Shown: one piece after another, positions 14,100 to 50,941 of the stretch
Numbering within the stretch: the stretch's first letter is position 1
Layout: each line of letters opens with the position of its first letter
NCBI GenBank assembly: GCA_003216455.1
Contig: QCIV01000001.1
Coordinates: 151,862 to 215,861 of the forward strand
Source: Prochlorococcus sp. AG-402-N17
GTDB taxonomy: Bacteria; Cyanobacteriota; Cyanobacteriia; PCC-6307; Cyanobiaceae
Reading direction: 5' to 3'
DNA length: 64,000 bases
Position numbers and translations under genes: made by a program
The notes under the pieces: generated by a model
Database searches by the model: none
What the model saw: the letters and a program-made list of their open reading frames with translations, nothing else
Told to the model about the DNA's origin: nothing

Positions 14100-14489
14100 A
14101 GGATCATTAAAATCCTCTTACAAATTTAGAAAAAAGTAAATCAGCATATTTACGGATTTACTGAAAATATAAAAAGGAGTAATTTATAAATGTTGAGTTC
14201 GGAGGCAATCTAAATGATTGATAGTCCGCCTGAAATTTAGCAAATTCCAAAATATAGGAAGCGTATTCCTGAGAATGGGATTATTCGAAAATTCAAGTTC
14301 AATCAATTAGTCTGATAAGACTTCGCTTTAAAATTACTAGCGACAATAGGGACTGAAATTATCGAGAGAAATCCCCGAATTCACGTATTCTAGGTTTATG
14401 AGTAAATAGACTTTAAAATATGTAATTTTATATCCTGTTAGAAGGAAATCAAATATCAAAAAGGACTGTACCAACAGTCCTTTTTTTTT
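14100..14489 (+). ncRNA. candidate structured RNA (unknown family), ends at a strong terminator
   Basis: Hairpins: GTAAAT/ATTTAC 14136-14153 versus alternative AGTAAATC/GATTTACT 14135-14162; AGGAA/TTCCT 14256-14270; AGTCT-GATA-AGACT 14309-14322; CGCT/AGCG 14324-14342; GGGA/TCCC 14349-14375; terminator at 14463. Confidence 0.45.
14463..14489 (+). terminator. Rho-independent terminator
   Basis: GGACTGT-ACCA-ACAGTCC followed by nine T. Confidence 0.85.
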
Positions 14490-50686: not shown

Positions 50687-50714
50687 GTTTCGATGTGACA
50701 ACACGGCCATCCCC

Positions 50715-50760
50715 CGTTCCATGGTATGACTCGAACTGCGCCCTCAATTGAGGGTGAACG
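50715..50760 (-). promoter_or_regulatory. candidate glutamine riboswitch / Downstream-peptide-type aptamer
   Basis: Minus strand: CGTTCACCCTCAATTGAGGGCGCAGTTCGAGTCATACCATGGAACG; P1 CGTTC/GAACG, P2 CCCTC/GAGGG. Confidence 0.55.
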
Positions 50761-50941
50761 AAAAAGTAGCGAATGCTACCAAATCATTATAAGCGTATTT
50801 TTAACTACATGTCTAGTTTTTACAAATAGAAACGAAGATTTAATGTTTTTTTAATTATTATCTTAGGTAAATTTTTTTATAAATAGTCTCTAAAAAGGTT
50901 TATGTTTATATTTGGTTTAATCTTCATTTAACTATTTATTT

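Follow-up and report, generated by a model that had tools for sequence, protein, structure and literature searches.

A hairpin-rich interval of about 390 nt (positions 14100-14489) in the window, the stretch of 64,000 nt of Prochlorococcus sp. AG-402-N17 DNA analyzed here, raised the question of which RNA, if any, it encodes. A sequence-only reading had left it unassigned and had proposed either an independent sRNA with a strong terminator or a long structured leader. An Rfam scan, named there as a check, did find a known RNA family: RF02360 matched positions 14192-14417 on the minus strand with 259.9 bits, over model positions 1-226 of 226, for a gathering cut-off of 40 bits. This covariance score over the full model places the locus in the Yfr8/Yfr9 family, and the interval can no longer be called unassigned. 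The Cyano-1 and Cyano-2 RNA motifs, also considered, gave no Rfam match. Elsewhere in the window, a Glutamine-II riboswitch (RF01704, 66 bits) is located at 50706-50763, minus strand.

RF02360 is registered in Rfam as Yfr8, "Cyanobacterial functional RNA 8/9". In Prochlorococcus MED4, Yfr8 and Yfr9 were described as an overlapping RNA pair (Steglich et al. 2008, PMC2518516), with Yfr8 at 339952..340241 and Yfr9 at complement(339887..340176); Northern blotting and 5' RACE were used for mapping, and bands of 180, 220 and 290 nt were obtained for each RNA. One genome of our collection (G033) gave an RF02360 match at exactly 339952-340177, in agreement with the MED4 annotation; this genome is therefore MED4, or identical to it at Yfr8/Yfr9. 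The locus in the window shares with the published pair the full-length covariance match, the overlap and the pip neighbor found in high-light strains.

By this homology, the RNA read on the plus strand from 14192 to the terminator is Yfr8, and it is the feature noticed earlier. The interval is the Yfr8 gene of a high-light Prochlorococcus, with a predicted Yfr9 antisense RNA opposite, a partner that the sequence-only reading had missed:

14192-14489, plus strand: Yfr8 RNA, about 290-298 nt, placed by MED4 homology, fold and covariation, with ends transferred from MED4.
14128-14417, minus strand: Yfr9 antisense RNA, placed by homology to MED4 Yfr9 and by the minus-strand RF02360 match.

Yfr8 is an independently transcribed, structured RNA closed by a terminator, the transcript mapping being that of MED4, where the ortholog was detected by Northern blotting and 5' RACE; the proposal of an independent sRNA was correct. 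The transcript proper begins at about 14192 and not at 14100. Upstream of this start, the interval holds the 3' end of the antisense RNA as well as a palindrome that is conserved. The longest open reading frame of the interval has at most 45 aa, in line with the earlier statement that none exceeds 60 aa. The RNA itself (Yfr8/Yfr9) is already known; relative to the literature searched, two points are new, namely that it carries a conserved mini-ORF and that Yfr8, Yfr11, Yfr16 and Yfr103-like RNAs can be grouped as one family. The joint reading, that the locus is Yfr8 and carries a family-wide mini-ORF that would be translated, is in our view likely.

The plus strand between 14192 and 14489 has a folding energy of -80.7 kcal/mol, whereas its shuffles average -54.1 (z -5.4) and none of 200 was equally stable. 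No fold excess over shuffles was found for the opposite strand of the Rfam-matched part (z -1.0). Covariation, the second check that had been named for this interval, was found on the Yfr8 strand: its consensus, from a 17-sequence alignment, contains 51 pairs, 15 of them with two-sided compensatory changes (covariation term -4.49), as against 2 of 34 pairs (term -0.39) when the Yfr9 strand of the same genomes was aligned. In the Yfr8-strand alignment 97.5% of cells were paired, and double-changed cells numbered 63, compared with 22 in shuffles (0 of 500 reached 63) and 6-16 in slid controls. A larger sequence set gave 122 G-U versus 5 A-C cells for the Yfr8-strand structure, which was itself chosen on that strand. 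Covariation thus favours the Yfr8 strand over the Yfr9 strand.

The elements of the consensus are, all on the plus strand:

14193-14234: 5' hairpin (helices 1-2), holding the Shine-Dalgarno (SD) sequence and most of the mini-ORF; 99-100% of cells paired.
14277-14281: GGGAT, which forms the 5' side of long-range helix 3 with ATCCC at 14371-14375 as partner; 97.6% of cells paired, one compensatory pair.
14309-14322: hairpin AGTCT-GATA-AGACT, invariant in 17 sequences.
14323-14343: hairpin TCGCT...AGCGA, with a compensatory CG to UA change in 4 sequences.
14383-14423: 3' hairpin (helices 6-7), six pairs with compensatory changes, including all four of helix 6.
14458-14489: intrinsic terminator of Yfr8, a 12-bp stem plus nine T; 7 of 12 pairs compensatory.

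All hairpins listed in the sequence-only reading are present: AGGAA/TTCCT, AGTCT-GATA-AGACT, CGCT/AGCG (about 14324-14343) and GGGA/TCCC (14277-14280 with 14371-14374). So is its terminator, GGACTGT-ACCA-ACAGTCC at 14463-14480 followed by nine T at 14481-14489. The 5' hairpin gives little covariation information because it is almost invariant. A long-range pairing of the 5' end, which appears in the single-sequence fold and in the Rfam model, was not adopted, as it is absent from the family consensus.

Since the published Yfr8 lies on the strand opposite to the RF02360 match, the Rfam model, though named Yfr8, is drawn on the Yfr9 strand, and its consensus structure has far less covariation support than that of the Yfr8 strand. 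This antisense placement could mislead structure and target predictions.

At its 5' start Yfr8 reads GTTGAGTTCGGAGGCAATCTAA ATG ATT GAT AGT CCG CCT GAA ATT TAG, that is, an SD sequence, 8 nt, the peptide MIDSPPEI and a stop codon, a second feature overlooked earlier:

14201-14205, plus strand: GGAGG, the Shine-Dalgarno sequence that precedes the mini-ORF, unchanged among 17 Yfr8-type sequences; 16S 3' end of the genome GGATCACCTCCT.
14214-14240, plus strand: putative mini-ORF MIDSPPEI with stop TAG, identified from the sequence and from family-wide conservation with third-position substitutions.

The 3' end of the 16S rRNA of this genome, ...GGCTGGATCACCTCCT, is complementary to GGAGG. The GGAGG-N-ATG arrangement was rejected as evidence in itself, 10 instances having been found in the window versus 5.4 expected; SD-ATG pairs being common by chance, the case for the mini-ORF rests on conservation. 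Among the 17 Yfr8-type sequences GGAGG, ATG, the codon frame and TCC(G/A)CCTGA are invariant, save that the first Pro codon varies at its third base. Within the 5' hairpin of the Yfr8 consensus, codons 4-5 of the mini-ORF are paired with the SD. A covariance model built for the Yfr8 strand, R1, found more distant copies, and a head of this kind was present in those inspected.

The degenerate pattern M-(I/V)-D-(S/T)-(P/L)-P-E occurred in 115 of 400 genomes, and the reversed-pattern control gave 0 among the genomes listed. MED4 has three matches, at 339974 (Yfr8), 358713 (inside Yfr11) and 657488 (inside Yfr16).

The search for phage origin was negative: no similar DNA was found among 50,697 phage records, and the hairpin pattern had no match in viral contigs. 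The mini-ORF pattern did occur in two viral contigs (L271 864-1112, L272 1755-2000), at the start of a seemingly unrelated phage protein of 81-82 aa that begins MIDSPPEF after GGAGG, apparently a chance pattern match.

The coding signal was analyzed in 30 RNAs from 12 genomes, retrieved with a second model, R2, and selected without reference to the ORF, although the training sequences of R2 had been found partly via the ORF. All 30 RNAs keep the SD, the start codon (ATG; TTG in at least three) and the D-(T/S)-P-P frame; their length differences amount to whole codons, and nearly all frames end after 8-15 codons. Pairwise differences over the five codons D-T/S-P-P-E were 55, 113 and 412 for positions 1, 2 and 3. 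Of the 15 columns, the five with the highest variability are exactly the third positions, which is the most extreme outcome among 3003 possible column choices, and the synonymous variants include CCG/CCA/CCC, GAC/GAT and ACT/ACC/ACG/ACA. Because the head does not vary among most of the high-light copies, this codon signal comes from other clades. The conservation of the mini-ORF across related genomes suggests that ribosomes probably engage these RNAs, although the family has been taken to be non-coding.

In deep paralogs of Yfr8 the ORF has 24-26 aa, e.g. MVCNPPEYLRKRFLFKEKPRMGHSLN. No third-position bias was found over the whole of these frames, which gives no support for coding constraint beyond the head. 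At L077 4272-4451, L079 7721-7901, L072 7798-7979, L075 4565-4747 and L128 the mini-ORF extends to 23-26 aa with a similar end, ...EKPRMG. Each deep paralog has a Yfr10 RNA (RF02362) nearby, no more than a few hundred bases away:

L072 8367-8452: Yfr10.
L075 5136-5220: Yfr10.
L077 4652-4735: Yfr10.
L079 7398-7480: Yfr10.
L128 1-81: Yfr10.

Sub-threshold Yfr17 (RF02365) matches were also seen nearby (L072 9342-9458, L075 6090-6225).

Among the distant copies is a class whose bodies carry the motifs CTGCTCCAA, GCATCG..AGGTGCCC and GGCCCCAG; R2 is a model of this class, trained without Yfr8. It matched in 347 of 400 genomes and in 55 of the 59 sampled genera of the family, with 7 to 8 matches per genome in some larger genomes, and it also detected the heads of MED4 Yfr8 (E 6.8e-5) and Yfr11 (8.5e-4). 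The Rfam Yfr11 model matched one mini-ORF locus above threshold (L117). For Yfr103, PMC5069720 describes responses to light and temperature and an imperfect palindrome that is conserved at -58 to -29. In Synechococcus CC9605 it has seven paralogs, 290-328 nt long, to which 55.2% of the mdRNA-Seq (primary-transcript) reads of CC9605 in an ocean sample belonged. Length, copy number, distribution and palindrome position of the R2 matches agree with this description, hence the label Yfr103-like; RNAs with these bodies are very probably Yfr103-like, the match being to the published description rather than to coordinates.

The genome of the window carries a separate Yfr103-like copy (L032, G000:C9:21002-21135; mini-ORF MIDSLPEISE); the 2016 paper gives Yfr103 homologs only for low-light Prochlorococcus and Synechococcus. 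Most genomes of genus g56 have a pair of Yfr103-like copies that point the same way and score identically, usually about 8-12 kb apart (for example G431:C1:416282-416464 and 427064-427246, L126 and L127), as if flanking, or copied with, a mobile segment.

Yfr8 resembles Yfr103, as summarized in PMC5069720, in the SD-led mini-ORF head, in the palindrome at equal distance from the start and in length. The two differ in that the body motifs CTGCTCCAA, GCATCG..AGGTGCCC and GGCCCCAG of the Yfr103-like RNAs are absent from Yfr8, and the published text available to us reports no antisense partner of Yfr103. Yfr8, which has the SD and the M-x-x-D-(T/S)-P-P-E mini-ORF at its 5' end but not the body motifs, was therefore filed as a relative by its head and not as Yfr103; as the bodies could not be aligned, the case for common descent is built on the head together with the region upstream. 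Yfr11 (Rfam RF02363) and Yfr16 of MED4 have the same SD-mini-ORF head as Yfr8 (MIDSPPEN...), but with 149 nt and 138 nt they are half as long and consist essentially of head and terminator, so that kinship runs through the head only. Having head and palindrome in common with Yfr11, Yfr16 and Yfr103-like RNAs, Yfr8 belongs, as a derived member, to a superfamily of short and probably translated RNAs of picocyanobacteria.

The sites upstream of the two RNAs are:

14136-14163: palindrome AGTAAATCAGCATATTTACGGATTTACT, -56 to -29 from the Yfr8 start, aligned in Yfr8-type and most Yfr103-like loci.
14180-14185, plus strand: putative -10-like box TAATTT of Yfr8, read from sequence and alignment.
14425-14430, minus strand: putative -10-like box TAAAAT of Yfr9, read from the sequence as TTGATT-16-TAAAAT at 14452-14425; such sites are no commoner there than by chance.

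The position of the palindrome in the window agrees with that published for Yfr103. It is a probable regulator site, and on the minus strand it doubles as the hairpin at the Yfr9 3' end. Terminators for both Yfr8 and Yfr9 are present in the window. The T-run 3' of the Yfr9 hairpin is absent from the L048-L051 group, which keeps Yfr8. Together with the covariation of the two strands, this absence suggests that Yfr8 is probably the older RNA and that Yfr9 may be restricted to some clades.

RF02360 matched in 210 of 266 genomes of the genus; the 58 further genera sampled from the family gave no match. A pip-like gene is located 71 nt downstream of Yfr8 on the same strand, in the window as in MED4, an arrangement that a 5' leader of pip would explain and that agrees with the long structured leader proposed earlier. 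Divergent genomes, however, carry one or two copies at other loci, beside other genes and away from pip; G024 has two divergent copies 12.5 kb apart, without pip. A cis leader would always lie upstream of pip and be co-transcribed with it, and Yfr8 also retains a terminator of its own with compensatory changes; that it is a pip leader is thus scarcely credible. A type I toxin-antitoxin system, suggested in 2008, in which one RNA would code for a toxin (the peptide of a 44-aa frame in Yfr9) and its partner act as RNA antitoxin, is in keeping with the published overlap, with the rise of Yfr9 1-3 h after phage infection of MED4 while Yfr8 is constitutive, and with the shorter life of Yfr9 (decay values of 6.9 min, and 19.7 min for Yfr8; PMC2897979). 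Yet neither RNA holds a conserved ORF for a small hydrophobic peptide: the longest frames on the Yfr9 strand span 21-51 aa, are broken in most genomes and start with TTG without an SD, and the peptide of Yfr8, with its 8 residues, is not a hydrophobic one. Some clades that retain Yfr8 also lack the Yfr9 T-run. We regard this explanation as very improbable. PMC2518516 treats the pair as non-coding, with an ORF proposed in Yfr9, whereas the conserved frame found here is in Yfr8.

It is harder to separate translation from a head that acts as RNA: resembling an SD, it would serve as decoy or binding site, capture 30S subunits or a protein, and yield no useful peptide. The SD is the most constant element, the end and length of the peptide vary, and in Yfr8 the head is an almost invariant hairpin in which the SD pairs with codons. 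Such a head would not account for substitutions that fall at third codon positions and length changes in whole codons; moreover, the codons ACC, ACG and ACA disrupt the SD-codon pairing and still preserve Thr. We consider the non-coding head rather unlikely, and prefer the reading in which the mini-ORF is translated. In this respect Yfr8 is like the dual-function sRNAs SgrS/SgrT and RNAIII (named in PMC2518516), which combine a structured RNA with a short ORF near the 5' part; we infer translation from evolutionary evidence. The Yfr8-type ORF differs from those of dual-function sRNAs in having 8-15 codons in most members, with only the first codons conserved, and no known target pairing.

We propose that the first 50 nt of Yfr8 would form a ribosome-engaging head, in which SD GGAGG and the mini-ORF MIDSPPEI lie within the 5' hairpin. 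Yfr11 and Yfr16 reportedly respond to light and DCMU, and Yfr103 to light and temperature; together with the shared palindrome, this suggests a common light- or redox-linked activator, a factor that would bind the palindrome and drive transcription. As the SD is paired with codons 4-5, initiation would have to open the 5' hairpin, and ribosomes would then translate Met-x-x-Asp-(Thr/Ser)-Pro-Pro-Glu. Slowing of ribosomes at Pro-Pro-Glu is known for EF-P-dependent motifs. Ribosomes slowed at the Pro-Pro codons may keep the hairpin open, and their occupancy of the head may determine how the RNA body folds, is processed or binds partners. Given that the peptide end and length vary while D-(T/S)-P-P-E and the start region do not, we think that ribosome engagement and the Pro-Pro step would matter more than the mature peptide. 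A pausing switch of this kind in Yfr8 is put forward tentatively. Yfr9 of the high-light clades would silence Yfr8 by pairing with about 226 nt of it.

Extended to the relatives, the proposal is a speculative one: Yfr8, Yfr11, Yfr16 and Yfr103 might form one ribosome-engaging superfamily, in which the Asp-Thr-Pro-Pro-Glu mini-ORF acts as a pause sensor controlling the body, and the antisense RNA of high-light clades might shut the sensor RNA off in phage attack. With a conserved SD and mini-ORF in common, four unexplained "non-coding" RNAs would become one family for which there is a definite and directly testable hypothesis. This would matter because Yfr103 is reported as the dominant transcript of some marine picocyanobacteria, with a function called "enigmatic" (PMC5069720).
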